Source of the DNA: Demequina subtropica
GTDB lineage: Bacteria; Actinomycetota; Actinomycetes; Actinomycetales; Demequinaceae
Assembly (NCBI RefSeq): GCF_000971235.1
Contig: NZ_BBMB01000011.1
Span: forward strand, 66,547-130,546
DNA length: 64,000 bases
Direction: 5' to 3'
Shown here: positions 1,276 through 63,251 of the stretch, piece by piece
Position numbering within the stretch: position 1 is the first letter of the stretch
Layout: each line of letters starts with the position of its first letter
Translations under genes and position numbers: made by a program
Notes under the pieces: model-generated
What the model was told of the DNA's origin: nothing
The model's input: only the letters and a program-made list of their open reading frames with translations
Databases searched by the model: none

Positions 1276-3573
1276 TCAGCCCGTCGCGGTCATGAGCGCG
1301 ACCGCGGCCACGCCCGCCGTCGTCCCGCCCGGGCCCGCCTCGAAGCGCACCTCGATGCCGTCGGCCGGCGCGTCGACCTCGTAGAGCGACTCGATCACGT
1401 CCCCGTACAGCGGCACGTTGCGCGCCACGGTCGACGCGGGCGCGGCGACCTCGCCGCCCAACCGCACCACCGCATCGTCCCCGCCGGACGGCAGCCCGAC
1501 CAGGGTGCGGATGCGCACCAGGTGCGGTCCCGCGACCTTCGGCTTGAGGACGTAGGAGAACCAGTCCTCCGCCATGCGCCAGCTGCGCGCGTTGGTCCAC
1601 TCGATGCGCGACGCGTGTGACAGGTAGCCGTGGTCCATCTCGGACTGCTGCTCGCCCGGCGCGACCACGTCGACCACGGCGGCGTCCTCGAGCTCGTCGG
1701 CGTCGAGCTCGGCGAGCATCTCGCGGAGCTCCTCGGCGGAGCCGCCCACCGGGAGGTAGACCGTCGCCCGCTCGTCGTGGATCTCGTTGTACGGCTCGAG
1801 CTCCAGCGTGACCGGTCGGGGAGCGTCCCCGTCGAGCCGGGTGGCGGTGAGCATCGCGCGACGGCCGAGCACGCCGACGTCGAGGGCGGCGTCCTCGCCC
1901 GCGCCCACCACGGCCGGCGTCTCGATCATGCGCCGCCGTGGACCGAGCGCGATGTGCGGCGCGTCCTTGCCGGTCGCGACCAGGCCCTCGAGATCGTCGG
2001 CCCCGTCGCGGTGCGCGAGCACGAACGGTCCGAGACGGAACGATGCCCACGGCGAGCCGTCAGGAAGGGGCTCGAGAGCGAGGCGGGGGGACAGCTCGAG
2101 GACGATGCGTGAGGTCCCCTCCCACCGGCGGTCGAGCGCGACCTCGCGCGCGTCGGGCGCGACCTCGACGATCTCCCCGTCGACGTTCACCTCCGCGCCG
2201 TCGGACCAGTCGGGGATGCGCAGGCGCACGCTGCGCTCCTGCGGCTCCCCGACGCTCACCTCGATCGTGACGCTCCACGAGGCCTTGAGATCCGCGCGCA
2301 CCTCGATCCGGATCCCGTCCCAGTCGAGCACCGCGGGCTCGTAGATCTCGACGCGCGGGCTGTCGCCGTCGCGCGAGAACAGGAAGCGGGCGTAGCGGCA
2401 GTGGCTCTCGAGGCCGCTGCCCACGCAGCACCACATGGACTCCCCGTGGCTCGAGTACACGCGATAGTGCGCGGGCCGCAGCGGGGAGAAGTACACGAAG
2501 CCGCCGTGCTCCGGGTGCTGGACCGTGAGCGCGTGGTTGTAGATCGCGCGCTCGGCGAAGTCGACCGGCCCGAGGTCGGACGAGGTCTGCCGGAAGAGGT
2601 CCGCGATGGTCAACATGTTGAACGTGTTGCACGACTCGGGGCCGAGCGCCTCGAGGATCATCGCGCGGAAGTCCTCCTTGGGATGGAAGTGCTCGCGCAC
2701 CCCGTGGCCGCCGAGCGAGATGGTGCGCTCGTGGACCACCGCGTCCCAGAAGACGTGCGCGGCATCGACCAGGTCCGCGTCGCCCGAGCGCGCGTAGCCG
2801 ATCACCTTGGGCACCTGCGTGTTCGCGTGCAGCCCGGTCAGCCGGTCCTCGCCCGCGAGCAGCGGGTCGAGCAGCAGATGATGCGACCACCGACGGCCCT
2901 CGACGGCGAGGTCCTCGCGTCCCGTGAGGGCGGCGAGCCGGAAGAAGGCGTCGTTCATGCCGCCGAACTCGGCGGTCAGGATCGACTCGATCTGCGCGTC
3001 GTCGAGCTCGGCGGAGATGCCCAGCCACCAGTCGGCCCATGCGACGGCCATCGCGAGCGCGTCGTCCTGGCCGGCCGCCTCGTACGCGTCGATGAGCCCG
3101 TTGAGCGTCTTGTGGAGGTTGTACATCGGGACCCAGCGGCCGTTGAGCGCGAACGGCTCGGCCTCGATCCGACCGGCACGCAGCTCCTCACCCAGCTCCA
3201 CGCCCCGCGGCGCGCCGCCCAGGTAGCCCGTGCCCACGGCGTCCTGGCACTCGCGCCACCCGTCGAGCATGGTGCGCAGCCGCGCGAGGATGTCCTCGCG
3301 TCCCGTGGCCGCGTAGAGGTGGGACAGCGCGGAGACGTAGTGGCCGCCGATATGGCCCCCCATCCCGCGCGACTCCCAGTCGCCGTAGCTCTCGACGACG
3401 GCGGGCAGGCCCGCCTCGTGCCGGTAGGGCGCGAGGAGACGATGCGGGTCGTGCGCGAGCGCGGTCGCGACCGAGCGCTCGAGCGCGGCGAGCAGCGGAC
3501 CGCCGGCGAGCGTGATGGAGCCCGCGGGGAAGGACCGCGGAGCGGGGTTATTACAACGTTGGAAATCGCCCAT
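1276..3573 (-). CDS. Glycoside hydrolase family 127, beta-L-arabinofuranosidase-like
   Basis: 765 aa from ATG at 3571-3573 (MGDFQRCNN); an in-frame extension upstream to 3702 lacks a ribosome binding site and runs through the probable promoter. The (alpha/alpha)6 barrel carries the GH127 signature residues: an ESCN motif (Glu and Cys zinc ligands) and WCCVGSG (catalytic Cys followed by a zinc-binding Cys). This is the cysteine-nucleophile chemistry of HypBA1-type enzymes. A beta-rich C-terminal region follows. No signal peptide, so it should act on imported arabinofuranosides in the cytosol. No sugar transporter is adjacent. A TATCCT -10 box six bases before the ATG suggests a leaderless mRNA, and a LacI-type palindrome overlaps codons 4-8. 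Confidence 0.88.
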   Translation of the reverse strand: MGDFQRCNNPAPRSFPAGSITLAGGPLLAALERSVATALAHDPHRLLAPYRHEAGLPAVVESYGDWESRGMGGHIGGHYVSALSHLYAATGREDILARLRTMLDGWRECQDAVGTGYLGGAPRGVELGEELRAGRIEAEPFALNGRWVPMYNLHKTLNGLIDAYEAAGQDDALAMAVAWADWWLGISAELDDAQIESILTAEFGGMNDAFFRLAALTGREDLAVEGRRWSHHLLLDPLLAGEDRLTGLHANTQVPKVIGYARSGDADLVDAAHVFWDAVVHERTISLGGHGVREHFHPKEDFRAMILEALGPESCNTFNMLTIADLFRQTSSDLGPVDFAERAIYNHALTVQHPEHGGFVYFSPLRPAHYRVYSSHGESMWCCVGSGLESHCRYARFLFSRDGDSPRVEIYEPAVLDWDGIRIEVRADLKASWSVTIEVSVGEPQERSVRLRIPDWSDGAEVNVDGEIVEVAPDAREVALDRRWEGTSRIVLELSPRLALEPLPDGSPWASFRLGPFVLAHRDGADDLEGLVATGKDAPHIALGPRRRMIETPAVVGAGEDAALDVGVLGRRAMLTATRLDGDAPRPVTLELEPYNEIHDERATVYLPVGGSAEELREMLAELDADELEDAAVVDVVAPGEQQSEMDHGYLSHASRIEWTNARSWRMAEDWFSYVLKPKVAGPHLVRIRTLVGLPSGGDDAVVRLGGEVAAPASTVARNVPLYGDVIESLYEVDAPADGIEVRFEAGPGGTTAGVAAVALMTATG
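3551..3564. promoter_or_regulatory. Candidate LacI-family operator
   Basis: TTACAACGTTGGAA is a near-perfect dyad (TTnCAACGTTGnAA) with the central CG step typical of LacI-family operators. It lies at the very start of the GH127 gene, about +10 relative to the presumed leaderless start site, a position suited to repression. No LacI-family gene is in the window. Confidence 0.5.
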
Positions 3574-3720
3574 GGCTCGAGGATAGACCGGCGCCGCGAC
3601 CGGGGGATCCCGGTCGCATCCGCACGAGGTGTGGCGAATCGCACACTTCCTGGCAAAACCTACATCTTGAGGGAAGTGTGAGCCTGCCGATAGGAGACGC
3701 AACAGGACATGGAGGTAGCG

Positions 3721-3750
3721 ATGCCGCAGACCGCCGAGGCCCGGCCATGA
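3721..3750 (+). CDS. 9-codon upstream ORF coupled to the next gene
   Basis: GGAGGT at 3711-3716 precedes ATG at 3721; the reading frame is MPQTAEARP followed by TGA at 3748-3750. The TGA overlaps the ATG of the next gene (ATGA at 3747-3750). The layout is that of a leader peptide delivering ribosomes to the main start by termination-reinitiation. No run of a single rare or regulatory codon is seen. It could be chance if the main gene really starts at GTG 3678. Confidence 0.4.
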   Translation: MPQTAEARP

Positions 3751-4220
3751 GCCCGTGGCCGACCGCGACGCGCGGGCGCACGGCGACGCCGACCGTCCCG
3801 TCCCCGCTCGACGACGACCCGGCGCGGCACCGCGCCAGGCTCGACCGCCTGCTGAACGGACCTCTTCTCGACGCGCGGCCGCGCCAGCGTCGGATCCTGT
3901 GCGGCGCGGTCGTCCACGTCGACGAGCTCTCCGGCCGGGTCCTGCGCTGCACGCGCGATCACGGCCATGCGGGCACCGATCACGACAACCTCGGCGCGCA
4001 GGTGCTCACCGACTGGGCCGAGTCGGGCGGCGCCGAGCTGCTCACCTCGCGCGCCCCCGTCACCCCCACCGGCCAGGCGATCGCGACGATCATGGCCCAC
4101 ATCCGCTCGTACGAAGGCGTGCGCCAGTGGCGCCTCGAGCGCGGGCTCGAGGACGATGCGGCGGCCGCGTGGGAGCGTGCCGAGGCGCTGCGGCTGCTGG
4201 TGAGGACCCTCGGGCGCTGA
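3747..4220 (+). CDS. Uncharacterised 157-aa protein
   Basis: ATG at 3747 is preferred (157 aa) because it overlaps the stop of the 9-codon upstream ORF; an in-frame GTG at 3678 with a weak GAGGGA would add 23 residues. The first ~20 residues are Thr/Pro-rich. The core has CGAVVHVDELSGRV and LRCTRDHGHAGTDH, a Cys/His-containing beta-turn region, and the C-terminal half is helical (IMAHIRSYEGVRQWRLERGL). No membrane span or signal. I do not recognise the family. It is divergent from the GH127 gene and convergent with the Cache-domain gene. Confidence 0.7.
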   Translation: MSPWPTATRGRTATPTVPSPLDDDPARHRARLDRLLNGPLLDARPRQRRILCGAVVHVDELSGRVLRCTRDHGHAGTDHDNLGAQVLTDWAESGGAELLTSRAPVTPTGQAIATIMAHIRSYEGVRQWRLERGLEDDAAAAWERAEALRLLVRTLGR

Positions 4221-4962: not shown

Positions 4963-5720
4963 CGATCCGCCGCCTCGCGGATCGCGAGCAGCCGGTCGAC
5001 CAGCCAGCCGACCTGCTCCGAGACGATCGCGCGTGCCTGCTCGGGGCTCTCGTCGTCGATCGCGGCGAGCAGGCGACGATGCCGGGCCGCGTTCCCGGTC
5101 ACCACGCCGTGCTCCTGCAGGGCGATCCACAGCAGCGGACCGAACTCGGCCTGGAGCCGCACCTGCTCGGACACCAGGCGCGCGGAGCGCGACAGCGCCG
5201 CGACCTCGACCCGGATGCCGTTCTCGGCGCGGCGCGCGGCCACGCCGTTGGCGACGGCACCGTCCTCGATGAGCGTGCCGAGCATCGCGACCTCGTCGGG
5301 CGTCGCGAACAGCGCCGCGCGCTCGGCCGCGGCACCCGCGATGAGCCCGTAGTGGAGCCCCATGTCGCGCAGCTCGACGCGTGACAGCCCGGTGAGGCGC
5401 GTGGTGAGCGCGGCGCGAGCATCGTCCCCGCTGCCGCAGACGAAGCTGCCGCCCGCGCGGCCACGGCGCGTCTCGATCAGCCCCGCGGTGCGCAGCGACT
5501 CGAGCGCCTCGCGCGCCGTCACGGTCGCGACGCCGAACTGCCGTCCGAGGTCCTGCTCGGTGGGAAGGCGCTCGCCCTGCTCGAGCAGGCCCAGCTGGAT
5601 GGCATCGGCGAGGCGCTGCGCGACGGCCTCGGCGCGGCCCACCGGAGCAAGCGGCGCGAAGATCGCGGCATGGGTGGCGGAGCGCGCGGCGTACGCGCCG
5701 GTGCCCCAGATCAGTCCCAC
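4959..5720 (-). CDS. GntR-family transcriptional regulator (FCD-type)
   Basis: 253 aa from GTG at 5720; the out-of-frame ATG nearby is not usable, and a CACAAT box six bases upstream suggests a leaderless mRNA. Residues about 20-90 form the GntR winged helix (AVAQRLADAIQLGLLEQGERLPTE, cited here in part, then LGRQFGVATVTAREALESL). The C-terminal helical bundle with SEQVGWLVDRLL fits an FCD-like effector domain. It is coupled to the Cache-domain gene downstream and divergent from the polyamine-type ABC operon. Two copies of one operator lie between them, so it probably represses both itself and the transporter. Confidence 0.88.
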   Translation of the reverse strand: MGLIWGTGAYAARSATHAAIFAPLAPVGRAEAVAQRLADAIQLGLLEQGERLPTEQDLGRQFGVATVTAREALESLRTAGLIETRRGRAGGSFVCGSGDDARAALTTRLTGLSRVELRDMGLHYGLIAGAAAERAALFATPDEVAMLGTLIEDGAVANGVAARRAENGIRVEVAALSRSARLVSEQVRLQAEFGPLLWIALQEHGVVTGNAARHRRLLAAIDDESPEQARAIVSEQVGWLVDRLLAIREAADR

Positions 5721-8111: not shown

Positions 8112-8143
8112 CCCCATCCCCCGCATCGTCCCTCGAAGGAACC

Positions 8144-9010: not shown

Positions 9011-9816
9011 TGCAGCTCGGACGCGTCGCCCGCATCGTCCTCGGTGCCATCACCCTGGTGGTGCTCGCCCTCATCTACCTGCCGCTCGGGGTGGTGTTCC
9101 TCAACTCGATCAGCACCTCGGAGAGCCTGTCGTGGCCGCCGCCGGGCTTCACCCTCGAGTGGTGGGGGCGCGCGCTCCACAGCACGGGGGCGCTCGAGGC
9201 GCTCGGCACGTCCGTGGTCGTCGGGCTCATCGCCTCCGCGATCGCCCTCGTGCTGGGCACGCTCGCGGCGATGGCCCTCTCGCGCTACCGGTTCTTCGGC
9301 AAGGAGACCGTCAACCTCCTCATCGTGCTGCCGATCGCCCTCCCCGGCATCGTCACCGGTATCGCGCTCAACAACGCCTTCCGCACGCTCATGGGCGTCG
9401 ACCTCGCGATGTGGACGCTCGTGGTCGCGCACGCGACGTTCTGCATCGTGACCGTGTACAACAACGCCTTCGCGCGCCTCAACGCGTCGGGCACGCGCCT
9501 CGAGGAGGCGTCGATGGACCTGGGCGCGGGGCTCTTCACCACGTTCCGGCTGGTGACCTTCCCGCACCTCAAGTCCGCGCTGATGGCCGGCGGCCTGCTC
9601 GCGTTCGCGCTCAGCTTCGACGAGATCATCGTCACCACCTTCACCGCGGGCACCGGGGTCACGACCCTGCCGCTGTGGATCCTGCAGAACATGTTCCGCC
9701 CGTCGCAGGCGCCGGTGGTCGCGGTCATCGCGGTGATCCTCGCGGTCGTGTCGGTGATCCCGCTCGCGATCGCGCAGCGCCTCACGGCCAAGGATGCCGA
9801 GGCCGTGTCGCGCTGA
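9010..9816 (+). CDS. potC: Polyamine-type ABC transporter, permease 2
   Basis: 268 aa; its ATG overlaps the stop of the first permease (TGATG), so the two are translationally coupled. About six spans (for example LVVLALIYLPLGVVFL) and the EAA loop EEASMDLGAGLFTTFRLVTF. It pairs with the preceding permease. Last gene of the importer operon; the next gene has its own metal-type promoter. Confidence 0.87.
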   Translation: MQLGRVARIVLGAITLVVLALIYLPLGVVFLNSISTSESLSWPPPGFTLEWWGRALHSTGALEALGTSVVVGLIASAIALVLGTLAAMALSRYRFFGKETVNLLIVLPIALPGIVTGIALNNAFRTLMGVDLAMWTLVVAHATFCIVTVYNNAFARLNASGTRLEEASMDLGAGLFTTFRLVTFPHLKSALMAGGLLAFALSFDEIIVTTFTAGTGVTTLPLWILQNMFRPSQAPVVAVIAVILAVVSVIPLAIAQRLTAKDAEAVSR

Positions 9817-10294: not shown

Positions 10295-10331
10295 GCCGCG
10301 CATCGTCCCCGGACACCGGACACGACGAAGA

Positions 10332-10734: not shown

Positions 10735-10735
10735 A

Positions 10736-11806: not shown

Positions 11807-14146
11807 ATGGCGGCCGTGGCCTCGGATCCGGAGAGCATGTCGACCGCCGCGCGCGCCCTCGCGTTCGCGCGCCGCGTGCCGGGCACGATCGCGGTCACGG
11901 TCGTGATCCTCGCGGTGGGCGCGCTCACCGGCGCGCTGTGGACGTCCGCCGAGTCCAACGGTCTGGTCGACAGGTGGGGCTGGGGGGTCGACGAGTTCTC
12001 CGACGGCCGCTGGCTCAACCTGATCGCCGGGGCCGCGATCGCGCCCGAGCCGTGGATGTACGGCCTGATCCTCGCCGTGTTCTGCGTCGGGGGCGGCTAC
12101 CTCGAGCTGCACTACGGCACGCTCCGGATGCTGCTCGCGGTCCTGGGGACCCATGTGGTCGCGGTGCTGGCGACCGCGGGGCTGCTGCTGGCGCTCGGCG
12201 CCGCGGGGGTCGACTGGGCCGAGGAGCTCGCGCACGTCCCCGACGTGGGCTTCAGCAACGGCGGCTTCGGAGCGCTCGGCGCGGCGACGGCAGGCTTCCC
12301 GTTGCTGTGGCGCCGGCGCGTCCGGCTCGTGGTGTCGCTGTACTGCATCGCGATGATCCTCTACGCCGCCGAGATCTGGGACTTCACCCACGCGACGGCC
12401 TTCCTCACCGGCGTGCTCATCGGCCCCTGGGTGGTGGGTCGCGCACGCGAGAGCGTCGACTGGCGGTTCGGCACGCAGGAGGTGCGCGATGCCGCAGCCA
12501 TCGTCCTCGCGTTCGGGAGCCTCCATCAGCTCCTCACCCGCATCTGGCCCGGCTCGGGCGGGATCCTGGACTTCGGTGGCAGCACGGACGATGCCACCAT
12601 CACCACGCTCGGCCTCGTGGGCAGCGCGGTGGTCTCGCTCGCGTTCGCGTACGCGCTGCACAAGGGCCGTCGGGGCGCGTGGTGGGTCATCGTCGTCCTC
12701 GCGTCCCTCGCCCTCATCGGCGGCTTCTTCGCGGAGCTGACCCCCTCGGTGGTGCTCGACCTGCTGCTCGACGCCGCGCTCGTGGTGCTGCTGGTGGGCT
12801 GGCGGCGCTGCTTCGCGGTGAAGGCGTCGAAGGCCAACCGGCGCCGCGTGTGGCGGCGGGGCCTCATGACCCTGGCGGGCCTCATGACGTTCACGGTCGT
12901 CGCGATCCTGGCGCTCGGCGATCAGATCTCCCCCGCGCCCACGCTCGGCCGTGCGGTCGGCGAGGCGGCCGCTCGCGTGGTCGGCGGCACCACGGGCCTC
13001 GAGGGCACCACCGACCTCGCGCGCACCCTGCTCAGCGCGATCGGGATCGTCTGGTTCATCGCCTTCGCGATCTTCCTGGCCTCGCTGCTGCTCGCGTCGC
13101 GCCAGCACAGCACCGAGGCCGCCGTGCGGGACCGCTACATCGCGCTCCAGCGGGACACACCCGCCATGACGAGCATCGGGTACATGACCCGGTGGGACGG
13201 CATCGACCACTGGATCACCGACGACGGACGCGGGGGCGTCGGCTTCAAGCAGGTCGGCAGCACCGTCATCGTCCTCTCCGATCCCGTGGGCGACGCGGGC
13301 GTCTCCGCGACGCACGCCGAGCTCGCGGACCACTGCCGCTCCCGCGGGTGGCGCCTCGCCTACTTCGCCGTGAGCGAGGACGCGCGGATCGCGCTCGAGG
13401 AGGCGGGCTGGAAGGGCATCCAGGTCGCCGAGGACACGGTCATCCACCTGCCGGAGCTTGCCTTCACCGGCAAGGCCTGGCAGGACGTGCGGTCCGCGAT
13501 CAACCGCGCCAAGCGCGAGGGCGTGACGATGCGCACCGTGCGCTTCGCGGATGCGCCCCGCGGCATGAAGGACCAGCTCGAGGCGATCTCCGCGCAGTGG
13601 GCGGGGGACAAGTCGCTTCCCGAGATGGGCTTCACGCTGGGCGACCTTCACGAGGCGGACGACCCCAACGTCGAGATGCACGTGGCGGTCGACGCGGACG
13701 GCACCGTCCACGGCATGACCAGCTGGCTGCCGGTCTACCGGGACGGCGACGTGGTCGGCTGGACCATCGACATCATGAAGCGCCGGCTCGACGACGGCGT
13801 GATGAGCGGGGTGATGGAGTTCCTCATCGCGCAGTCCGCTGTCGAGTTCAAGGAGGCGGGCTACGAGTTCATCTCGCTGTCCGCCGCGCCGCTCAGCTAC
13901 TCAGGCGAGGTCGAGGGGACCATCGAGCGCCTGCTCGACGTGCTCGCCGACAAGATGGAGCCGTACTACGGCTTCACGAGCCTCGAGCGGTTCAAGGCGA
14001 AGTTCAAGCCCGAGCACCGTCCGCTGTTCCTCATGTACCCGGACGAGGCTCAGCTGCCCGCGATCGCGGCCGCCATCCTGCGCGCCTACCTCCCGGACGC
14101 GACCGCCGCCGACCTGGTGCGCGCGGCGGTGACGCGCCCCGACTGA
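11807..14146 (+). CDS. MprF-like protein: rhomboid-like membrane region plus DUF2156 transferase
   Basis: 779 aa. ATG at 11807 has TAGCGT six bases upstream, suggesting a leaderless mRNA. The N-terminal ~450 residues hold about 10-12 membrane spans; the first part (HYGTLRMLLAVLGTHVVAVL, GFSNGGFGALGA) is rhomboid-like. The last ~330 residues are a cytosolic DUF2156/phosphatidylglycerol lysyltransferase C-terminal domain (GNAT-type fold) with DSVGD-like VLSDPVGD, SAINRAKREGV and GYEFISLSAAPLSY. Such proteins transfer aminoacyl groups from tRNA to membrane lipid, lowering surface charge. Whether it uses lysine or alanine cannot be told. It is monocistronic. Confidence 0.8.
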   Translation: MAAVASDPESMSTAARALAFARRVPGTIAVTVVILAVGALTGALWTSAESNGLVDRWGWGVDEFSDGRWLNLIAGAAIAPEPWMYGLILAVFCVGGGYLELHYGTLRMLLAVLGTHVVAVLATAGLLLALGAAGVDWAEELAHVPDVGFSNGGFGALGAATAGFPLLWRRRVRLVVSLYCIAMILYAAEIWDFTHATAFLTGVLIGPWVVGRARESVDWRFGTQEVRDAAAIVLAFGSLHQLLTRIWPGSGGILDFGGSTDDATITTLGLVGSAVVSLAFAYALHKGRRGAWWVIVVLASLALIGGFFAELTPSVVLDLLLDAALVVLLVGWRRCFAVKASKANRRRVWRRGLMTLAGLMTFTVVAILALGDQISPAPTLGRAVGEAAARVVGGTTGLEGTTDLARTLLSAIGIVWFIAFAIFLASLLLASRQHSTEAAVRDRYIALQRDTPAMTSIGYMTRWDGIDHWITDDGRGGVGFKQVGSTVIVLSDPVGDAGVSATHAELADHCRSRGWRLAYFAVSEDARIALEEAGWKGIQVAEDTVIHLPELAFTGKAWQDVRSAINRAKREGVTMRTVRFADAPRGMKDQLEAISAQWAGDKSLPEMGFTLGDLHEADDPNVEMHVAVDADGTVHGMTSWLPVYRDGDVVGWTIDIMKRRLDDGVMSGVMEFLIAQSAVEFKEAGYEFISLSAAPLSYSGEVEGTIERLLDVLADKMEPYYGFTSLERFKAKFKPEHRPLFLMYPDEAQLPAIAAAILRAYLPDATAADLVRAAVTRPD

Positions 14147-14170: not shown

Positions 14171-15682
14171 CTAGTGCCCCGCACCGAGGTGCCCGGACAT
14201 GCGGCCGTGGAACTCGCGCGACGCCTCGTTGAGGCCCACGATCTCCACCTCGATGCCGTGCGTCGCGTACTTGTGCTCGATCGCGTCGAGCGCCGCGACG
14301 GTCGACGCGTCCCACACGTGCGAGTGCGTCATGTCGATGACCACCTTCTCGGGGTCGCCCGCGTAGTCGAACTGGCTGTAGAGGTCGTTCGAGCTCGCGA
14401 AGAACAGCTCGCCGGCCACCGAGTAGCGACGGACCCCCTCCTCGATCGGGCCGCCCGTGACCTCCGCAAGGTGCGCGACGCGGCGCGCGAACAGCACGCT
14501 CGCGAGCAGGACGCCTGCCACCACGCCGTAGGCGAGGTTGTGGGTCACCACCACCACGGCGACGGTGAGCAGCATCACCGAGGTCTCCGAGCGCGGCATG
14601 CGGCGCAGCGTGGACGGGCGGATCGAGTGCCAGTCGAAGGTGGCCCACGAGACGAACAGCATGACCGCGACCAGCGCCGCCATGGGGATCACCGCGACCA
14701 CGTCGCCCAGCAGCAGGATGAGGATCAGCAGGAACACGCCCGCGGACAGCGTCGACAGGCGCGTGCGCGCGCCGCCGGCCTTCACGTTGATCATGGTCTG
14801 GCCGATCATCGCGCAGCCGCCCATCCCGCCGAACATCCCGGTGATGACGTTGGCCGCGCCCTGGCCCCAGGCCTCGCGCGTCTTGTCGGAGTGGGTGTCG
14901 GTGACGTCGTCGACCAGCTTCGCGGTCATGAGCGACTCGAGCAGTCCCACGAGCGCGAGGCCGAGCGCGTAGGGGAGCACGATGCGCAGCGTCTCGAGCG
15001 TCCAGGGCACGTCGGGCACGAACAGCCCGGGCAGCCCCTCAGGCAGCGCCCCCTCGTCACCCACCGTCGGCACCGCGATGCCCGCCCACACGGTGACGAT
15101 GGTGAGCACGATGATCGCGACCAGCGGCGCCGGCACGGCCTTGGTGAGGCGCGGCCACAGGAAGATGATCGCGAGACCCACCGCGACCAGGGCATACACG
15201 GTCCACGGCTTGTCCGTCAGATGGGGCAGCTGCGCCATCGCGATGAGGATCGCGAGCGAGTTCACGAACCCGACCATGACCGAGCGGGGGATGAAGCGCA
15301 TGAGCTTCGCCACGCCCAGCAGCCCGAGCGCCACCTGGATGAGCCCGCCGAGCACCACCGCGAGCACCAGGTAGTCGAGCCCGTGCTCCTTCGCGAGCGG
15401 CGCCACCACGAGCGCGACCGCGGCGGTGGCCGCGGAGATCATCGCGGGACGGCCGCCCAGGAACGCGATCGACACGGCCATGGTGAACGAGGCGAACAGG
15501 CCCACGCGCGGGTCGACGCCCGCGATGATCGAGAAGGAGATCGCCTCGGGGATGAGCGCGAGCGCGACCATGAGGCCGGAGACGAGCTCGATGCGCAGCG
15601 TGCGCGGCTTGAGCGCTGCGCGCCAGGACGATGCGGCGGCGGCCTCGGGCACGCCGGTGGCGGTACGGGCGGCGGTGGGCAT
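14171..15682 (-). CDS. SulP-family anion transporter with STAS domain
   Basis: 503 aa, ATG at 15682 with GGAG five bases upstream. The membrane part starts with TLRIELVSGLMVALALIPEA, followed by GVDPRVGLFASF, the SulP signature region, and about 10-12 spans. A C-terminal STAS domain covers the last ~110 residues (KVVIDMTHSHVWDASTVAAL). Family members take up sulfate, bicarbonate or dicarboxylates; the truncated loop pattern and short N-terminus do not tell which. Convergent with the MprF-like gene only 24 bases away. Confidence 0.87.
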   Translation of the reverse strand: MPTAARTATGVPEAAAASSWRAALKPRTLRIELVSGLMVALALIPEAISFSIIAGVDPRVGLFASFTMAVSIAFLGGRPAMISAATAAVALVVAPLAKEHGLDYLVLAVVLGGLIQVALGLLGVAKLMRFIPRSVMVGFVNSLAILIAMAQLPHLTDKPWTVYALVAVGLAIIFLWPRLTKAVPAPLVAIIVLTIVTVWAGIAVPTVGDEGALPEGLPGLFVPDVPWTLETLRIVLPYALGLALVGLLESLMTAKLVDDVTDTHSDKTREAWGQGAANVITGMFGGMGGCAMIGQTMINVKAGGARTRLSTLSAGVFLLILILLLGDVVAVIPMAALVAVMLFVSWATFDWHSIRPSTLRRMPRSETSVMLLTVAVVVVTHNLAYGVVAGVLLASVLFARRVAHLAEVTGGPIEEGVRRYSVAGELFFASSNDLYSQFDYAGDPEKVVIDMTHSHVWDASTVAALDAIEHKYATHGIEVEIVGLNEASREFHGRMSGHLGAGH

Positions 15683-20655: not shown

Positions 20656-20688
20656 CGCCGCATCGTCCCCTCGAGGGGCGGTGCGGCG
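20656..20688. terminator. Bidirectional terminator
   Basis: CGCCGCA (20656-20662) pairs with TGCGGCG (20682-20688), with an inner CCCC-TCGA-GGGG hairpin. It serves two convergent genes and contains one copy of the GCATCGTCC 9-mer. Confidence 0.65.
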
Positions 20689-21959: not shown

Positions 21960-26781
<4,822 letters not shown>

Positions 26782-42107: not shown

Positions 42108-43442
42108 TCAGGGGGCGACGGGCGCGCCGATGACCTCGTCGAACAGCTGGACAAGGGCGGGCTTGGGGCGGGCGCCGACGACCGACTTCACCACCTGGCC
42201 GTCCTTGAAGAAGCTCATGGTGGGGATGGAGGTGACCCCGTAGGCCATCGCGAGGTCGGGGTTGGCGTCGGTGTCCACCTTGACCACCTTGAGGCGGCCC
42301 GCGTACTCCTCGGCGAGCTCGTCGAGGAGCGGGGCGACGGCGCGGCACGGCCCGCACCACGTCGCCCAGAAGTCGACCACCACGGGGACCTCCGACTGGA
42401 GCACCTCGGCAGGGAAGGAGTCGACGGTGGCGTTCACCGGCACGGCGGGAAGCTCGGCCGCCGGCGCCGATGCGGCGGTCTCGGTGGACGATGCGGCGGG
42501 CTCCTCGACGTCGGCGAGGCTGTCGAGGAAGTGCTGGGCGTCGAGGGCGGCGGCGCAGCCGGAGCCGGCGGCGGTGATGGCCTGGCGGTAGCGGTTGTCG
42601 ACCAGGTCGCCGCACGCGAACACCCCGTCGACGTTGGTCGCGGTAGTCCGGCCGATGACCTGCACGTAGCCCTCGGCGTCGGTGTCGACCACGCCCTTGA
42701 CCAGCTCGGAGCGCGGCTCGTGGCCGATCGCGACGAACAGGCCTGTCGCGGCCAGGGTCGACTCGTCACCGGTGACGCGGTTGCGGACCCGCACGCCCTC
42801 GAGCCTGGCGTCGCCGTCCAGGCCGATGACCTCGGAGTTCCACACGAACTCGATCTTCGGGTCGGCCTTGGCGCGGTCGGCCATGATCTTGGACGCCCGG
42901 AGCTCGTCGCGACGGTGCACCAGGTACACCTTCGAGGCGAAGCGGGTGAGGAACGTGGCCTCCTCGACGGCGGAGTCGCCGCCGCCGACCACCACGACCG
43001 TCTGGTCGCGGAAGAAGAAGCCGTCGCACGTCGCGCACCAGGACACACCCTTGCCCGACAGGCGCTTCTCGTCGTCCAGCCCGAGCTCGCGGTAGGCGGA
43101 GCCGGTCGCGAGGATCACGGCCTTCGCGGTGTACGTGCCGGACATGCCGGTGACCACCGTCTTGACCGGGCCCTCGAGGTCCAGCGACGTCGCATCGTCG
43201 AAGAGGACCTCGGCGCCGAAGCGCTCGGCCTGCGCCTGCAGGGTCTCCATGAGCTCCGGACCCTGCACGCCCTCGACGAACCCGGGGAAGTTCTCCACCT
43301 CGGTCGTGTTCATCAGCGCGCCGCCCGCGGTGATCGAGCCCGCGACCACCAGAGGGGCGAAGCCTGCGCGCGCGGCATAGATGGCGGCGGTGTACCCGGC
43401 AGGACCGGATCCGACGATGATGAGGTTGCGGGTCTCGCTCAC
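42108..43442 (-). CDS. trxB: Thioredoxin reductase-thioredoxin fusion protein
   Basis: 444 aa, GTG 43442 with AAGGAACC upstream. Residues 1-~310 are NADPH thioredoxin reductase: [14 protein letters not shown] (FAD), redox-active Cys136-Ala-Thr-Cys139 (WCATCDG), NADPH motif [10 protein letters not shown], and [20 protein letters not shown]. An Ala/Pro/Thr-rich linker (~30 residues) leads to a complete thioredoxin with Cys363-Gly-Pro-Cys366 (FWATWCGPC) and the cis-Pro in TSIPTMSFF. The natural substrate is thus tethered to its reductase. Mycobacterium leprae has a comparable hybrid. Maintains cytosolic thiols. Confidence 0.94.
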
Positions 43443-46676: not shown

Positions 46677-48674
46677 TCAGCCTCGCTCCCCGGTTCCGGC
46701 GTGATCGGTGCGCGTGTCCTTGCGGCCGCGACGCACCGTGCGGATCACGCCCATGACGAGCATCGCGATGAGCCCGACCGTGAACACCGCGGTCACGGCC
46801 GTGCCCCAATCCGCGCGCACGCGCACGGACATGCTCACGGGCGACGCGATGCTGCGGCCGTCGGTGTTGCGCAGCACCGTCCGCGCCTGCACGTTCGCGG
46901 AGGACACCGCGGAGACCTCGACCGGCACGGTGGTGCTCGAGCGAGGCGGCACGGTCACCGTCGGCGAGTCGCGGATCTGGAGGTTGGCCGAGAAGGACGT
47001 CATGTCGACCACCACGGTGGCCGCCACGTCCAGGTCGTTCACCACCGTGACGGGGAGCGCGCCCTGGTCCGCGATGAAGTTGATATCGGAGCCCGCCGCG
47101 ACGTGGAGGGCTCCGAGCGTCGCGTCGACGGTGGTCTGCGCATCGGTGAGCAGCAGCTCGCGGGCGAGCTCGTCACCGCGCACCGTGCGCGCGAGCGGGG
47201 CCAGCAGCGCCGCGCCGCCCGGCACGGTGATGTCCTCCGGGTCCTCCGCGACCACACCCAGGTCCGCGAGCCGTTCGAGGCGCGTCGCGATCCCGGTGAT
47301 CGCCGCCTTGCCCAGGTCGTCCTCCTCGCCGAGCAGCTCCTCGAGGCTCGCGCCACGGTCCGCCGGCGCGTCAAGCAGGTCCCCGACGCTCACCGCGGAT
47401 ACGAAGGACGCGCTGAGGAGCGCCGAGAGCGTGGTGGTCGCGCTCGCGGTCGTCGGGCTCCAGTCGTCGCCCGTCCAGACCAGCACGGGGCCGTCGTGCT
47501 GGGCCGCGGTGAGCGCCGCGGCCGCGGTCGCCATGCCTGCGGCGCCCGGGGTCGAGGACGCATCGGCCATCGCCAGCTCCGAGAGGAGGGGGTCCGGCTG
47601 GAGCAGGGTCATCCGCCACTCGCCGGCGCCCACGAGGCGCGTGGCCGACACGGGCCGGGTGTCCGGCGCATCGTCCGCATCCGGCGTGACCAGCAGCGTG
47701 CCCGCGCCGTTCTCGACCGCGTAGCGGACCGTGGCCTTGTCGAGGCTGCCGACGATGCCGAGCCAGGGGAGCCCCGCGAGCTCGCCGTCGCCCGCACCGG
47801 AGCTGAGACCGAGGGAGTAGTCGAGGACCTCGGTGCTCTCGGCATGGGCGAGCGACACGAGGTCGGGGTCCTGGGCGGGCAGGCGCAGCGTCGAGCCCTC
47901 GTCGATGTCCGCGGAGCCGCCGTCGAGCGCGGACCACGCGTTGCCGTCGACCGCGAGCGTCACGCCGTCGAGGCCCGCCGCCTCCGCGACCGCGTCCACG
48001 CGATCGGTGATGCCGGTCGCGGTCGCGAGCGTCGCGAGTGAGAGCGCAGGGATGTCGGCATCGTCCCAGGTCACCGCGCCGTTCATGAGCGTGGTCGTCT
48101 CGCCGTCGGCCCGGAGCACCACGCGGATCCCGTGCACGCCCCACGTGTCCGCCTCGAAGGGGAGGCGGTCGTCGACCGACGTGACGGTGACGGTGGAGGA
48201 CGTGCCCGCGGCCAGCCGGGTGAAGGTGTCGGGTTGCTCGGGCTCCGCGGCGCCGTCGGGCCCCTGGGTCGCGTCGGGGGTCGGCACCGGGCTGGGCGTC
48301 GGCTCGGTCATGGTCACGCCGACGTCGGTGCCGCCGACGCTCACCAGGCGTGCGTCGCCGCCGTCGAGGAACGCGGCCAGCGCCTTGCGGTTCTCGAGCG
48401 GCTTGCGCGTGATCTGGAGGATCACGCGCGCATCGTCCACCGCGGTGGTGGAGAGGTTGGAGACCGCGACGGTCACGTTCATCGCGTCGCCGGGCTCCAC
48501 CACGGGAGCCGGGGCGGACACCACGTCCGCGTCGAGCTGCGGATCCTCGCTGTCGGTGGGGGCGGCCGCGGCCGGCAGGCCGATCGCGAGCGTCGCCAGC
48601 ACCCCGGCGCCGGCAAGCGCCCGCCGCGCCGCGCGCGGGGCGCGCGGGGCGCCGCGCATCGTCCCCCGGATCAC
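46677..48674 (-). CDS. DUF6049 family secreted/membrane-anchored protein
   Basis: 665 aa from GTG 48674, overlapping the NUDIX stop (GTGA); ATG 48659 is a possible alternative. A signal peptide with Arg-rich start and LAGAGVLATLAIGLPAAAA, several beta-sandwich stretches (MNVTVAVSNLSTTAVDDARV, VTVPPRSSTTVPVEVSAVSS) and a C-terminal helix (TAVTAVFTVGLIAMLVMGVI) with a basic tail. The bulk is therefore outside the membrane. Conserved placement between NUDIX and murJ suggests an envelope role. Function unproven. Confidence 0.85.
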   Translation of the reverse strand: MIRGTMRGAPRAPRAARRALAGAGVLATLAIGLPAAAAPTDSEDPQLDADVVSAPAPVVEPGDAMNVTVAVSNLSTTAVDDARVILQITRKPLENRKALAAFLDGGDARLVSVGGTDVGVTMTEPTPSPVPTPDATQGPDGAAEPEQPDTFTRLAAGTSSTVTVTSVDDRLPFEADTWGVHGIRVVLRADGETTTLMNGAVTWDDADIPALSLATLATATGITDRVDAVAEAAGLDGVTLAVDGNAWSALDGGSADIDEGSTLRLPAQDPDLVSLAHAESTEVLDYSLGLSSGAGDGELAGLPWLGIVGSLDKATVRYAVENGAGTLLVTPDADDAPDTRPVSATRLVGAGEWRMTLLQPDPLLSELAMADASSTPGAAGMATAAAALTAAQHDGPVLVWTGDDWSPTTASATTTLSALLSASFVSAVSVGDLLDAPADRGASLEELLGEEDDLGKAAITGIATRLERLADLGVVAEDPEDITVPGGAALLAPLARTVRGDELARELLLTDAQTTVDATLGALHVAAGSDINFIADQGALPVTVVNDLDVAATVVVDMTSFSANLQIRDSPTVTVPPRSSTTVPVEVSAVSSANVQARTVLRNTDGRSIASPVSMSVRVRADWGTAVTAVFTVGLIAMLVMGVIRTVRRGRKDTRTDHAGTGERG

Positions 48675-51900: not shown

Positions 51901-53001
51901 TCAGGCGCTGATCGCGTGGGCCAGGTGCGGGAAGATCGCCGCCACCGGCTCGTGGACGATGCTGCCGCCCACCGTCGCGAGGCCGCGGGCGAGCGCCGGG
52001 TCCTTGGCGGTGGCGACCTCCCAGCCGTCATTCGCGAGGCGCAGCGCGTAGGGGAGCGTCGCATTGGTGAGGGCCAGGGTCGACGTGTTGCCCACCGCGC
52101 CGGGCATGTTCGCGACGCAGTAGAAGGTCGATCCCTCGACCGTGTACGTGGGCGCCGCGTGCGTGGTGGGGCGCGAGTCCTCGAAGCATCCGCCCTGGTC
52201 GATCGCGATGTCGACCAGCACCGAGCCGGGCTTCATGCGCGACACCAGGTCGCGCGACACGAGCGTGGGGGCGCGGTCGCCCGCGACCAGCACCGCGCCG
52301 ATCACGAGGTCCGCCTCGAGGCACGCCCGCTCGACCTCGTAGGACGAGGACACCACCGTCTTCACGCGGCCCGCGTAGAGCGCGTCGAGCTGACGCAGGC
52401 GCGCGATGGAGAGGTCGAGCACCGTCACGTCCGCGCCCATCCCCACGGCCTGCGCGATGGCGTTCTGGCCGGACATCCCGGCGCCGAGCACCGTCACCTT
52501 CGCGGGACGCACGCCGGGCACGCCGCCGAGGAGCACGCCGCGTCCGCCCTGCGAGGACTGGAGCGCGAAGGCGCCCACCATGGTGGCCATGCGTCCGGCG
52601 ACCTCGCTCATCGGGGCGAGCAGCGGGAGGGAGCCGTCGGCGAGCGCGACCGTCTCGTACGCGATGGCCGTGGTGCCCGAGGAGACCAGGGCGCGCGTGA
52701 GGGCCTCGTCCGCGGCGAGGTGGAGGTACGTGAACAGCAGGAGCCCGTCACGGAGGTAGCCGTACTCGGACGCGATCGGCTCCTTGACCTTGATCACCAT
52801 CTCGCACGCCCAGGCCTCGTCGACGGTGCCGAGCGTGGCGCCGGCGAGGGCGTAGGACTCGTCGGAGAAGCCGGACCCGCCGCCCGCGCCGGCCTGCACC
52901 ACCACGGTGTGGCCCGCGGCGACGAGCTCGTGCACGCCCGCCGGGGTCGCGCCCACGCGGCGCTCGTTGTCCTTGATCTCTGCCGGGATGCCGATGCGCA
53001 T
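51901..53001 (-). CDS. ald: Alanine dehydrogenase
   Basis: 366 aa. MRIGIPAEIKDNERRVGATP start, substrate residues in VKVKEPIASEY-like MVIKVKEPIASEYGYLR, NAD motif VLGAGMSGQNAIAQAVGMG, and the signature region MKPGSVLVDIAIDQGGCFED with the catalytic Asp/His region HAAPTYTVEGSTFYCVANMP. Interconverts alanine and pyruvate with NAD. Divergent from a Lrp-type regulator that probably controls it. Confidence 0.96.
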   Translation of the reverse strand: MRIGIPAEIKDNERRVGATPAGVHELVAAGHTVVVQAGAGGGSGFSDESYALAGATLGTVDEAWACEMVIKVKEPIASEYGYLRDGLLLFTYLHLAADEALTRALVSSGTTAIAYETVALADGSLPLLAPMSEVAGRMATMVGAFALQSSQGGRGVLLGGVPGVRPAKVTVLGAGMSGQNAIAQAVGMGADVTVLDLSIARLRQLDALYAGRVKTVVSSSYEVERACLEADLVIGAVLVAGDRAPTLVSRDLVSRMKPGSVLVDIAIDQGGCFEDSRPTTHAAPTYTVEGSTFYCVANMPGAVGNTSTLALTNATLPYALRLANDGWEVATAKDPALARGLATVGGSIVHEPVAAIFPHLAHAISA

Positions 53002-53691: not shown

Positions 53692-53725
53692 GGACGATGC
53701 CGGGGCCGGGCGGGCGCATCGTCCC
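53691..53725. terminator. Terminator built from an inverted pair of the GCATCGTCC element
   Basis: GGGACGATGC (53691-53700) pairs with GCATCGTCCC (53716-53725) around a 15-base GC-rich loop. It immediately follows the Lrp stop and faces the convergent MFS gene. Confidence 0.75.
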
Positions 53726-55802: not shown

Positions 55803-55894
55803 ACACGCGCCTCGCCGCCGCCGCATTACCAGGCACCCAACCTTTTCGGTGCTTGCATCCCTCCTAGGGCCAGAGCCGTGAGGGGGGAGTGGCC

Positions 55895-56440
55895 ATGGCG
55901 GCATGGGAGCCGATGCTCCAGGAGCTGATGACGGAGAGGTATCCACGTCTGCTGGCGCGCGCAAGGATGCTCGCGGTGTCGCGGGCCGAGGCGGAGGACC
56001 TGGTGCAGGACGCCCTCGTGGCGACCTTCCAGCGTCCCCGGCGCTTCGAGTCGATCGGGCAGGCCGAGCAGTACGTGAGGCGGGCGATCGTGACGTCCTT
56101 CGCCGCGGCCGCCCGCAAGGGCGTGCTCGAGCGCCAGCGGTGGGAGCGGGTGGAGGTCGCCGAGGCGGCTCCCGATCCGGCCGTGAGCGTCGCGGGCGCG
56201 CTCGACGCGGCCTCCGCCGTGGCGGCGCTGCCCGCCCGGGTGCGCGCGTGCATCGTCCTGCGGTACATGGACGATGCATCGATCGCCGATACGGCGCGCC
56301 TCCTGTCGCTGAGCGAAGGAGCGGTCAAGCGGTACTGCGCGGATGGCATCGCGGCGCTCAACGCCGCGCTCGGCACGGCCGCGAGCGTGGACGGACCGGT
56401 CGGCGTGCCGGTCACGGTGACGAAGGGGGGTGCCCGATGA
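55895..56440 (+). CDS. Sigma-70 family factor, SigE/ECF type
   Basis: 181 aa from ATG 55895 (AGGGGGGAG upstream); GTG 55889 is too close to it. Region 2: RYPRLLARARMLAVSRAEAE, then DLVQDALVATFQRPRRF. Region 4: LPARVRACIVLRYMDDASI and LLSLSEGAVKRYCADGI. Resembles the SigE-family of extracytoplasmic-function factors in actinobacteria. Coupled (ATGA) to a membrane protein that is its likely partner. Confidence 0.88.
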   Translation: MAAWEPMLQELMTERYPRLLARARMLAVSRAEAEDLVQDALVATFQRPRRFESIGQAEQYVRRAIVTSFAAAARKGVLERQRWERVEVAEAAPDPAVSVAGALDAASAVAALPARVRACIVLRYMDDASIADTARLLSLSEGAVKRYCADGIAALNAALGTAASVDGPVGVPVTVTKGGAR

Positions 56441-57798
56441 CCGGGCACGAGCTGGAGCGGATGCTTCAGGAGGCCGAGGACGCGTATGCCGCCGACGAGC
56501 TCGGGGCGACGATGCCGGAGCTGCGGGCGCACGCCACGATGAGGGCGGCGCGCCTCGCGAGGACCAGGCGGCGCGCGGTCTCGATCGCGGCGGCATCGGT
56601 CGCGGCGATCGCGTTCGGCGGGGTGGTCTGGGCCTCGCCCGCGTTGCGGACCGCGCCGGTTCCTGCGGTGACGCCGTCGTGGTCGGAATCGCCGACGCCG
56701 GTGGCGACCGCTTCGCCGACGCCCGAGCCGTCGGGCACTGCCGAGCCGCAGGCGACGCCGACCGCATCGTCCTCCTCGACGCCGGTTCAGGGACCGGTCT
56801 TCGACGAGGTTGCGCTCGCGGACCTGGTCGCGGGGCTGGATGCCTCGCTGTACCCGGCCGGGCTCGCGCCGATGACCGATGAGGTGTGGGCGACGGTCGA
56901 TGCGACGTGGGTGCTCGCCGGCTACGAGCCGTCCGTGCTGTCCGGCGAGCCGCAGGGCCCGCAGCTGGTCCTCGCGCTCTCGCCCGCCGGTGAGGCGTAC
57001 GCGGTCACCGCGCTGTCCGACGACCTGGTGGTCGTGGTGACCGCGTGGACGCCGGGCGAGACCCGGGTGTACGCGCACACGTACACCGAGCGTGTGCGGC
57101 GCGCCGGCGCGGAGGGTGAACCCGCGGTGCTCGACCTCGCGACGGGGGAGCTGGCGGGACCGGACGGGGCGGAGCCCGCCATGTCGGTGCTCTCCCTGGT
57201 CTCGGACGACTTCACGCGGCGCGGCTTCCAGGCGCAGGCGGGTGCGTACGACTGCCTGGAGCTGGCGGCGCTCGACGGCGGTCGGCTGGCCTTCTGCCAC
57301 GACTCCGACGCGAGCATCTTCGACTCCGGGGTGACGTACGAGGACCTGGATCCGTTCGTCGGGGTCGTGGCGTTCGACGCCGACGAGACGGTGACCCGCC
57401 TCTACGCCCTCGACCCCGACGGGCTGTGGCCGTCGGGAGCAGTCGCGGGCCCGACCGGCGAGGTGGTGGTGACCGGCGAGCCCTCCTCGGGGTGGACCTC
57501 GGGGTACTACTACGGGGACGAGGTCCCCATGGTCGGTCGCGTGACGGAGAGCGGGATCGCCACCCTGGGCCGCGCCGACGAGCTGGGCGGCCTCACGCCC
57601 GAGGAGTGCGGCTTCAACGGCCTCGGGGCCGTCGGGGTCGACGGCGGGATCTGGGTCATGTGCGGCATCGGCCAGGAGCCCATGCCCGCGCCGGTGTTCT
57701 TCCTGCCGGATGCCGGAGCCGCCGCGGTCGCGGTGCCGCTGCCGGCGGACCCCTCGGTCCGGCTCAGCACCCTCTGGATGACCACCGCGACGCGCTAG
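56437..57798 (+). CDS. Membrane protein coupled to the sigma factor
   Basis: 453 aa, ATG overlapping the sigma stop. A ~55-residue cytosolic head (HELERMLQEAEDAYAADELG), one membrane helix (AVSIAAASVAAIAFGGVVWA), a Pro/Thr/Ser linker, and a ~330-residue outside beta-propeller-like domain with conserved Cys pairs (YDCLELAALDGGRLAFCHD). No zinc-binding anti-sigma motif is visible. A signal-sensing anti-sigma role is inferred from gene coupling and topology. Confidence 0.72.
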   Translation: MTGHELERMLQEAEDAYAADELGATMPELRAHATMRAARLARTRRRAVSIAAASVAAIAFGGVVWASPALRTAPVPAVTPSWSESPTPVATASPTPEPSGTAEPQATPTASSSSTPVQGPVFDEVALADLVAGLDASLYPAGLAPMTDEVWATVDATWVLAGYEPSVLSGEPQGPQLVLALSPAGEAYAVTALSDDLVVVVTAWTPGETRVYAHTYTERVRRAGAEGEPAVLDLATGELAGPDGAEPAMSVLSLVSDDFTRRGFQAQAGAYDCLELAALDGGRLAFCHDSDASIFDSGVTYEDLDPFVGVVAFDADETVTRLYALDPDGLWPSGAVAGPTGEVVVTGEPSSGWTSGYYYGDEVPMVGRVTESGIATLGRADELGGLTPEECGFNGLGAVGVDGGIWVMCGIGQEPMPAPVFFLPDAGAAAVAVPLPADPSVRLSTLWMTTATR

Positions 57799-58995: not shown

Positions 58996-59583
58996 CTAGT
59001 GGTCCGCTGGCGCGGAGCCGTTGTTCTCACCGCCGCGGGCGGATCGTTCATTCTCGATGAGGCGGTCGAGCCACTGGACCTCGCGCTCGACCTGCTCGAG
59101 GCCGTGGCGCTGAAGCTCTGCGGTGTAGGCGTCGTGGCGCTCGTGCATGCGCTTGAGCCCGTCCGACACCTCCTCGAGCCGTTCGGAGAGCCGGCTGCGC
59201 CGCCCCTCCAGGATCCGCAGCCGCGTCGCGGCGTCGGTGTGTGCGAAGAGAGAGAAGCGCACGTCGAACGCGTCGTCGTCCCACGACGATGCGCCGGCGT
59301 TCGCCAGCTCCTCCGACAGTCGGGCGCGCCCCGGGTCCGTGAGGCTGTACGCGATGCGCGCGCGCCGGGACGATGCGGACGACGAGCCCGCGGGCTCCTC
59401 GCCGGAGGCCTCGATGAGGCCCGCCTCGACCATGCGACGCAGGCACGGGTACAGCGACCCGTAGCTGAGGGCCCGGAACGGGCCCAGCTCGGCACCCAGC
59501 CGCTTGCGGATCTGGTAGCCGTGGAGGGGCTGGTCGCGGAGGATGCCGAGGATCGCGAGGGTCAGGACATCGGTCTTGGCCAT
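58996..59583 (-). CDS. PadR-family transcriptional regulator
   Basis: 195 aa from ATG 59583 with GGAGG upstream. Winged helix DVLTLAILGILRDQPLHGYQ, then FRALSYGSLYPCLRRMVEAG, and a long C-terminal helical (Vir_act_alpha_C-like) domain. Its gene precedes ino1 in the same operon, as in several actinobacteria, so it probably controls inositol synthesis. Two palindromes lie just upstream. Confidence 0.92.
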   Translation of the reverse strand: MAKTDVLTLAILGILRDQPLHGYQIRKRLGAELGPFRALSYGSLYPCLRRMVEAGLIEASGEEPAGSSSASSRRARIAYSLTDPGRARLSEELANAGASSWDDDAFDVRFSLFAHTDAATRLRILEGRRSRLSERLEEVSDGLKRMHERHDAYTAELQRHGLEQVEREVQWLDRLIENERSARGGENNGSAPADH

Positions 59584-59682: not shown

Positions 59683-59819
59683 CCGCGAAACCGGCTCGCC
59701 GGGTCACGATGCGGCGTCGCCGCGCGTTGGGGGAGCATCCGGGGCGCCGCCCCAGCCGGCGGGACGCGCGCATCGTCCCGGATCGGGGCGTGCGCCCCCT
59801 CAGTCCTTAAGGTGGTCAC

Positions 59820-62189: not shown

Positions 62190-62207
62190 GCCGGTCCGCC
62201 GTGGGGC

Positions 62208-63251
62208 TCAGCGGGCGACGGCCCGCTTGAGCCTCAGGGCGGCCACCAGCGCGCGGTAGCGGAGGGGCTTGAGCGGCACGTCCCAAGCGCCGTCGCACTC
62301 GACGATCTCGCCGAGCTGCTGCTTGAACTCGCGCACGCCCATGAGCTGCGGTGCGCGCGCGGAGCCCACGCCGAAGAGGTCGTACTCGCGCACGCCCTCC
62401 GCCTTGAGCGTCATGAGGATCTCCCACTTGATGCGCAGGGCCGCGTTGGTGTCGCGCGCCTCGAGGTTGTTGGCGGCGTAGTAGTCGGTGCCGCCGTCCT
62501 CGTGCACCACCGCGAGCACCCAGGCCACCGCGCGACCCGGCGCGAGCGTGCCGTCCTCGCCCGCATCGTGCCGCCGCGCGACCCAGATCCGGGTGTGCGG
62601 CGCGAGCGCGTCGAGCATCGTGAGGTACATGTCCGCCGGGAAGATGCCGAAGCCGGCGCCCTCCGCCGTCTCGCGGTAGATCGCGTAGAGCTCCTCGAAC
62701 TGCTCGGCGCTCAGGCCGGTCTCCTCGGTCACCGTCATGGCCTCGTCCTTAAGGGTGCGGCGGATCTTGTAGCGGCCGCGCTTGGAGAACGTGGACATGA
62801 TCGTGTCGCTGTCAGGGGTGAGGTCGATGATGACGGTGTGGTCGAACGTCACCGTCTGGAGCAGCTCCCGAAGGTCGGGGGCGGCGTGGCGCGCGTGCAT
62901 GCGCAGGAACGTCGCCCACGGGTAGCGCACCTTGAGGTCGGCGACCAGCGCGTCGCGGATGGCCTTCTCGTTGCCCGGGGTCCGCTCGACGAGCGGGATG
63001 GGGCCGTGCTTGGCCCACACGTACGGGAAGCCGCGGACCTCGTACCGCGACACGGAGACCACCGCGACGGGCGCATCGTCCGCCGCCAGGACCGCGAGGC
63101 GGTCCAGGTGCTCGCGCCCGGGCACCGCGGCGTCGTAGGCGTCCCACGCCGGGGCCTGCTCGATCGGGACGGGGTGGTCGGCGCGACGCGCGAGCTCCAG
63201 GAAGCGCTCGTCGGACACGACCTCGACGCGCAGCGGCGTGGGAAGGCTCAT
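62208..63251 (-). CDS. FemAB-type peptidoglycan bridge aminoacyltransferase
   Basis: 347 aa. FemX/FemAB family with two GNAT-like halves: EQAPAWDAYDAAVPG, VAVVSVSRYEVRGFPYVWAKHGPIPLV start-site region, TFSKRGRYKIRRTLKDEAM and AIYRETAEGAGFGIFPADM. Uses aminoacyl-tRNA to add amino acids to lipid-II stem peptide cross-bridges. Next to an ATP-grasp ligase in the same orientation (18-base gap), suggesting mixed bridge building. Confidence 0.9.
   Translation of the reverse strand: MSLPTPLRVEVVSDERFLELARRADHPVPIEQAPAWDAYDAAVPGREHLDRLAVLAADDAPVAVVSVSRYEVRGFPYVWAKHGPIPLVERTPGNEKAIRDALVADLKVRYPWATFLRMHARHAAPDLRELLQTVTFDHTVIIDLTPDSDTIMSTFSKRGRYKIRRTLKDEAMTVTEETGLSAEQFEELYAIYRETAEGAGFGIFPADMYLTMLDALAPHTRIWVARRHDAGEDGTLAPGRAVAWVLAVVHEDGGTDYYAANNLEARDTNAALRIKWEILMTLKAEGVREYDLFGVGSARAPQLMGVREFKQQLGEIVECDGAWDVPLKPLRYRALVAALRLKRAVAR

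Follow-up and report, generated by a model that had tools for sequence, protein, structure and literature searches.

The DNA analysed here, a 64-kb stretch of contig C13 (the window; 70.7% GC) from the 3.08-Mb genome of Demequina subtropica, comes from a genus of soil and marine actinobacteria and is interspersed with a short word, the 9-mer GCATCGTCC. There are 31 exact copies between positions 1472 and 63081, 23 of them preceded by a C, whereas 100 dinucleotide shuffles of the window gave a mean of 1.84 and a maximum of 7. According to gene calls made in this analysis with a simple codon model, seven of the 31 are intergenic. The copies, with the open reading frames (ORFs) that matter to some of them, are:

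1472 to 1480, plus strand: GCATCGTCC with C before it
2100 to 2108, minus strand: motif copy
4151 to 4159, minus strand: motif copy
5419 to 5427, plus strand: motif copy
8123 to 8131, plus strand: motif copy, intergenic
9032 to 9040, plus strand: motif copy
10300 to 10308, plus strand: motif copy, intergenic, a gene end 6 bp before
12586 to 12594, minus strand: motif copy
15626 to 15634, minus strand: motif copy
18822 to 18830, minus strand: motif copy
20660 to 20668, plus strand: motif copy, intergenic
22423 to 22431, plus strand: motif copy within an 887-aa ORF (21960-24623)
24719 to 24727, plus strand: motif copy within a 667-aa ORF (24613-26616)
25940 to 25948, plus strand: motif copy within the same 667-aa ORF (24613-26616)
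29411 to 29419, plus strand: motif copy
29873 to 29881, minus strand: motif copy
42486 to 42494, minus strand: motif copy
45815 to 45823, minus strand: motif copy
47668 to 47676, plus strand: motif copy
48058 to 48066, plus strand: motif copy
48430 to 48438, plus strand: motif copy
48656 to 48664, plus strand: motif copy, intergenic
51954 to 51962, minus strand: motif copy
53692 to 53700, minus strand: motif copy forming, as left arm, an inverted pair with 53716; convergent genes on either side
53716 to 53724, plus strand: motif copy, right arm of the 53692 pair; hairpin of -24.3 kcal/mol, z -1.3
56250 to 56258, plus strand: motif copy forming, as left arm, an inverted pair with 56269 within an ORF (55889-56440)
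56269 to 56277, minus strand: motif copy, right arm of the 56250 pair; hairpin of -20 kcal/mol, z -2.8
56764 to 56772, plus strand: motif copy
59368 to 59376, minus strand: motif copy
59770 to 59778, plus strand: motif copy, intergenic
63073 to 63081, plus strand: motif copy

An earlier note on this DNA had read the word as a possible DNA uptake signal, counting 30 exact copies against about one expected. The excess holds, with the figures corrected to 31 and 1.84. Its estimate of about seven intergenic copies agrees with our gene calls, and the two inverted pairs that it described are present at 53692/53716 and 56250/56269. Its figure of about three near-misses was too low, as the near-miss GCATCGTCG was counted 12 times in the window.

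The excess extends to the whole genome. The 10-mer CGCATCGTCC, which includes the preceding C, occurs 1,079 times (527 forward and 552 reverse), compared to three copies (2+1) of a control with its letters reversed. Word counts refer to whole genomes; the Markov, coding and alignment tests used samples of 40 to 524 kb, the Markov and coding tests of this genome resting on 524 kb, or 17% of it. In that sample GCATCGTCC was observed 220 times, against 19.3 expected from an order-3 and 33.4 from an order-4 Markov model, so that the word survives the third-order comparison named beforehand as able to overturn it. The 10-mer was observed 161 times against 7.4 expected, and the word ranks first by z-score among over-represented 9- and 10-mers. 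The near-miss GCATCGTCG is also in excess, 2.9-fold (115 vs 40). Outside the 10-mer the flanks carry almost no information, so that spread of the copies within some larger element can be dismissed.

Within genes the word appears to have been accommodated at the expense of codon choice and even of protein sequence. Of the 220 sample copies, 184 lie in called genes, 87 along the direction of the gene and 97 opposite to it, and the remaining 36 are intergenic, giving a density of 0.84/kb in noncoding DNA and 0.38/kb in coding DNA (P=5e-5). The coding copies translate to Asp-Asp-Ala (90), Ala-Ser-Ser (47), x-Ile-Val-x (33) or other peptides. When synonymous codons were shuffled within genes, 34 copies were left where there are really 184. 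GAT makes up 11% of all Asp codons, and the claim that this rarer codon is forced by the word in Asp-Asp-Ala was borne out: GAC-GAT is used in 124 of 221 Asp-Asp-Ala (56%), but in only 55 of 506 other Asp-Asp (11%; P=1e-36). The tripeptide Asp-Asp-Ala is itself enriched (221 observed vs 122 expected), and proteins have therefore been bent to fit the word.

The copies show no strand polarity. Over 524 kb they are split into 115 plus and 105 minus, with the largest contigs balanced too, and relative to the origin region the window holds 15 leading-strand and 16 lagging-strand copies. Their spacing is close to random (coefficient of variation, CV, 1.03). Pairs less than 60 bp apart are mostly inverted: 10 inverted vs 1 direct in this genome (P=0.006), and 22 vs 7 in eight genomes (P=0.004). 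The hairpins that such pairs can form range from -20 to -35 kcal/mol, a strong example being TCGCATCGTCCCC-TCGCC-GGGGACGATGCGA at -26.4 kcal/mol, and some perfect ones lie after genes. No T-run was seen after the inverted-pair hairpins, and we therefore do not claim a terminator function for them. The longest motif-free stretch of the window (29873-42486, 12.6 kb) lies over the apparent origin region, where the starts of ORFs resemble recF, dnaN, dnaA, yidC, jag, rsmG, parA and parB, and where three parS-like sites GTTTCACGTGAAAC occur at 36768, 37654 and 37782. Islands were considered as the cause of this gap (29.9-42.5 kb) and rejected: it overlies the origin region, and since the chance of so long a gap anywhere in the window is about 16%, its length taken alone is not significant.

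Conservation at aligned sites in relatives, also named beforehand as decisive for the signal, was found. Compared with G024 (83% identity), 25 of 47 aligned copies (53%) are intact, against 26% for 9-mers of the same composition (P=0.0002). With the closer G019 (90% identity) the figures are 39 of 58 (67%) and 52% for the control (P=0.02). Compared with G014, which uses a different word, none of 37 aligned copies is intact, against 16% for the control (P=0.003).

A survey of 37 Demequina genomes, with unbiased k-mer scans wherever CGCATCGTCC was low, revealed that the word exists in dialects. The distribution of CGCATCGTCC, hereafter the TCC word, is bimodal: 12 genomes, including the present one, hold 711 to 1,564 copies, Demequina sediminis (G026) holds 235, and the remaining ones 10 to 123. 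The scans returned CGCATCGGCC for G013 and G034, GGCATCGGCC for G014 (NBRC 110057), AGCATCGGCC for G010 (D. flava), GGCATCGTCC for D. sediminis and ACAGCGTCGGGC for G009; dialects from species with only about 21 kb are provisional. Every dialect word fits a shared frame, (A/C/G)GC(A/G)TCG(T/G)(C/G)C. Genome-wide, GCATCGGCC peaks at 2,018 copies in G014 and reaches at least 580 in 14 genomes outside the TCC group, compared to 40 to 110 for most reversed controls; in TCC genomes it is found at only about twice the expectation. For AGCGTCGGGC the counts are 908 in G009 and 254 in G011, falling to about 6 to 52 in the remaining Demequina genomes, nearly all of which are close to the control level. 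In G014, GCATCGTCC was counted 10 times against 5.5 expected. The words track clades on a tree of the AlaS, MltG, AroE and PilB proteins. G004 retains the TCC word, unlike the rest of the sister clade in which it falls, where the word was lost or altered; this suggests that the TCC word predates the split of that clade. No strong word was found in Demequina G001, G003, G005, G012, G027 and G032.

Outside the genus the word is unremarkable. The 10-mer occurs 3 to 37 times in 22 genomes from other families of the same order, and among about 396 actinobacterial genomes across the phylum the maximum outside Demequina was 102, with most below 60; no comparable excess was present in any of those searched. 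An uptake-like word in Cellulomonas, TGTCGATGT, was rejected, since it lies on a single strand at homologous coding positions and is an artefact of pooled orthologous loci. Our literature searches turned up no such word for any Gram-positive bacterium and no over-represented DNA uptake sequence in Actinobacteria, and a motif-discovery survey makes no mention of Actinobacteria, Demequina or Cellulomonas. To our knowledge, no uptake word has been described in Gram-positive bacteria.

What could such a word be for? The flanks of the Haemophilus uptake signal sequence (USS) are AT-rich, while those of the Demequina word are nearly free of information save for the preceding C. In other respects the word resembles the Pasteurellaceae USS (AAGTGCGGT type; PMC1626085, PMC1939737), with a 9-bp core, about a thousand or more copies on both strands, terminator-like inverted pairs and clade variants. 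The likeness to the DNA uptake sequence (DUS) of Neisseriaceae and its receptor ComP (PMC3630211, PMC3868556) extends further: a non-palindromic word of 10-12 bp in hundreds to thousands of copies, on both strands, in inverted pairs and in both intergenic and intragenic positions, a type IV pilus in the same organism, and several dialects that track phylogeny around a short shared core. Eight dialects with a CTG core are known there, and they limit transformation across species; the GC-R-TCG frame is their counterpart in Demequina. The sequences are unrelated, however, the Demequina core being GC-R-TCG rather than CTG; Demequina is a high-GC Gram-positive without an outer membrane; and the comparison is drawn from features of sequence, the orphan pilin of Demequina merely resembling ComP. 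It was through features like these that DUS and USS came to be recognised in Neisseriaceae and Pasteurellaceae (PMC3630211, PMC1626085, PMC1939737), and we infer that the word works like a DUS, its membership in that class being conditional on uptake. The uptake reading of the earlier note is thus supported by the tests on sequence; as a function it is something that we infer.

We consider it likely that CGCATCGTCC represents a Demequina DUS in its local dialect. Lineage dialects with a common core are the best support for this reading, as they are not predicted by chi sites, nucleoid-protein sites or codon bias. In the mechanism that we propose, the DNA-binding part of a type IV pilus and ComEA-ComEC machine would prefer double-stranded DNA that bears the word in either orientation, so that the word would raise DNA uptake with the pilus as the route. 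Recombination of the preferentially imported fragments would spread and repair copies where protein and regulatory constraints allow, and a change of receptor may drive a change of dialect. The fuller proposal also seems to us reasonably probable, namely that a Gram-positive actinobacterial genus has a DUS system of independent origin with at least five lineage dialects, that its receptor is a type IV pilin of a domain family restricted to Demequina, and that dialect change acts as a barrier to transformation.

A DNA-uptake machinery is encoded. The uptake genes that the earlier note had proposed to look for are present in this genome as a complete type IV pilus operon, mltG-aroE-pilB-pilT-pilC-pilA-three minor pilins-pilD-pilM-pilN (L041/L042, G000:C12:40001-80000, mltG and aroE lying upstream), as well as comEA-comEC and dprA, the last being found in all five of the genomes tested. 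A pilB-type ATPase is present in 37 of 37 Demequina genomes and a comEC match in 36, the exception being an 85% complete genome. The relatives of its PilC are from Demequina species, the closest in D. gelatinilytica (95%); PilC relatives are also widespread in Cellulomonas and Actinotalea. The comEC gene appears to be split over two frames in G009 (G009:C1:2039413-2040200), which has 908 copies of its own dialect despite this, and it is interrupted in D. sediminis (one TGA, two frames; G026:C1:423579-424363); either could be an assembly error or a real loss of competence. We know of no uptake word in Micrococcus luteus. The competence of this naturally transformable actinobacterium likewise depends on com genes together with a filament of the type IV class (PMC4322843), but there the pilus is of the Flp/Tad type, in contrast to the classical pilB-pilT-pilC-pilM-pilN operon and strong word of Demequina.

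The best candidate for a receptor, though missing from this genome, is an orphan gene that encodes a pilin-like protein of 131 to 171 aa and is located beside metE, outside the operon, in distant Demequina clades and in about 27 of the 37 genomes (for example L208:1483-1899, L209:1366-1881, L217:1444-1905 and L219:1189-1599 on the minus strand). It evolves fast past the N-terminal helix, keeps two invariant cysteines and has been lost or broken several times. It resembles ComP in being a small orphan pilin with two C-terminal cysteines, a resemblance only. Its domain of about 95 aa (WC...C), which is rarely seen outside Demequina, is shared by the operon PilA of this genome. The same domain occurs on other membrane proteins (L271, L272 and further loci), whose N-termini we take, by our own reading of the sequences, to be DUF2510-like and DUF4190-like; its presence alone is therefore uninformative. 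The minor pilins of the operon were rejected as sole determinant of the dialect, since G006 and G016 share a word and hold different sets. These two sets (L050 in G006, L053 in G016) are dissimilar within one dialect clade, which suggests cassette exchange of minor-pilin genes.

Several observations weigh against the uptake interpretation. The metE-linked pilin is absent from this genome, G019, G026, G018 and G031, its gene in G013 is broken, and most of these genomes keep 800-1,250 copies of the motif; it therefore cannot be the only receptor, and as a necessary one it was rejected. The minor-pilin types of the operon do not match the dialect either. Type IV pilus and comEC genes are present in the low- or no-motif species G001, G003 and G027, so the machinery is not sufficient. 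The evidence for depletion of the word in acquired DNA is weak: the 7.9 kb that G019 lacks contain 1 copy, vs 0.51/kb, and relative to G024 the figures are 0.34/kb vs 0.50/kb. Finally, we found nothing in the literature linking Demequina with DNA uptake, and we know of no demonstration of its transformation.

Among the rival explanations, a relic is unlikely but deserves a hearing: the word could have been fixed by a past competence system, now unused in this lineage, and be decaying. The lack of the orphan pilin in this genome and its sister G019 fits, as does conservation between the two that is only modestly above control (67% vs 52%). Against it, single-base decay forms at the six core positions mostly show no clear excess in this genome (for example GCATCATCC 7 vs 11, GCGTCGTCC 27 vs 40), in contrast to the tolerated changes at the last positions. 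The chi-like site raised in the earlier note, or an oriented recombination or segregation site of the AdnAB, AddAB, RecBCD or FtsK type, would also be a short non-palindromic word with hundreds of copies in the core genome, kept within species groups. We regard it as very improbable because the copies lack polarity: the replication strand bias it implied did not appear, either in the window (15/16) or in the 524 kb (115/105). Close pairs are moreover mostly inverted, and the spelling has shifted at least five times in one genus, where chi recognition is generally expected to be slow to change.

Just as improbable, in our judgement, is a site for a nucleoid-associated, condensin-like or regulatory protein of drifting specificity. 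Such a protein could account for the intergenic excess, the genome-wide spread and some perfect hairpins after genes, but hardly for copies that mostly sit within genes, are read in several frames and have tripeptides adapted to them, for near-random spacing, or for dialects so sharply distinct that a neighbour's word is near background. Lineage-specific words are typical of defence systems, and the word might be a protective methylation or anti-restriction tag, or be kept by restriction-modification or another such system. We hold this to be more doubtful still, as these systems normally deplete rather than enrich their own words, and a full contiguous non-palindromic word of 9-10 bp is unusual for methylases. 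A bias in codon or peptide usage, a mutation bias or the spread of a small mobile element might be suspected from the many copies that encode Asp-Asp-Ala or Ala-Ser-Ser. This is scarcely credible and is already contradicted by the three main readings in both orientations, the intergenic copies, the synonymous shuffle (34 vs 184) and the near information-free flanks.

Self-specific DNA uptake has been described in two proteobacterial families, and whether it is a peculiarity of these or has arisen repeatedly is an open question. If the DUS interpretation of the Demequina word is true, uptake words would be independent of an outer membrane or secretin, as this is a single-membrane, high-GC case, and a third independent origin would become available for comparing the co-evolution of receptor and word. 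The claim is directly testable, since many Demequina type strains are held in culture collections. It would also suggest that the species boundaries of Demequina are set in part by dialect.

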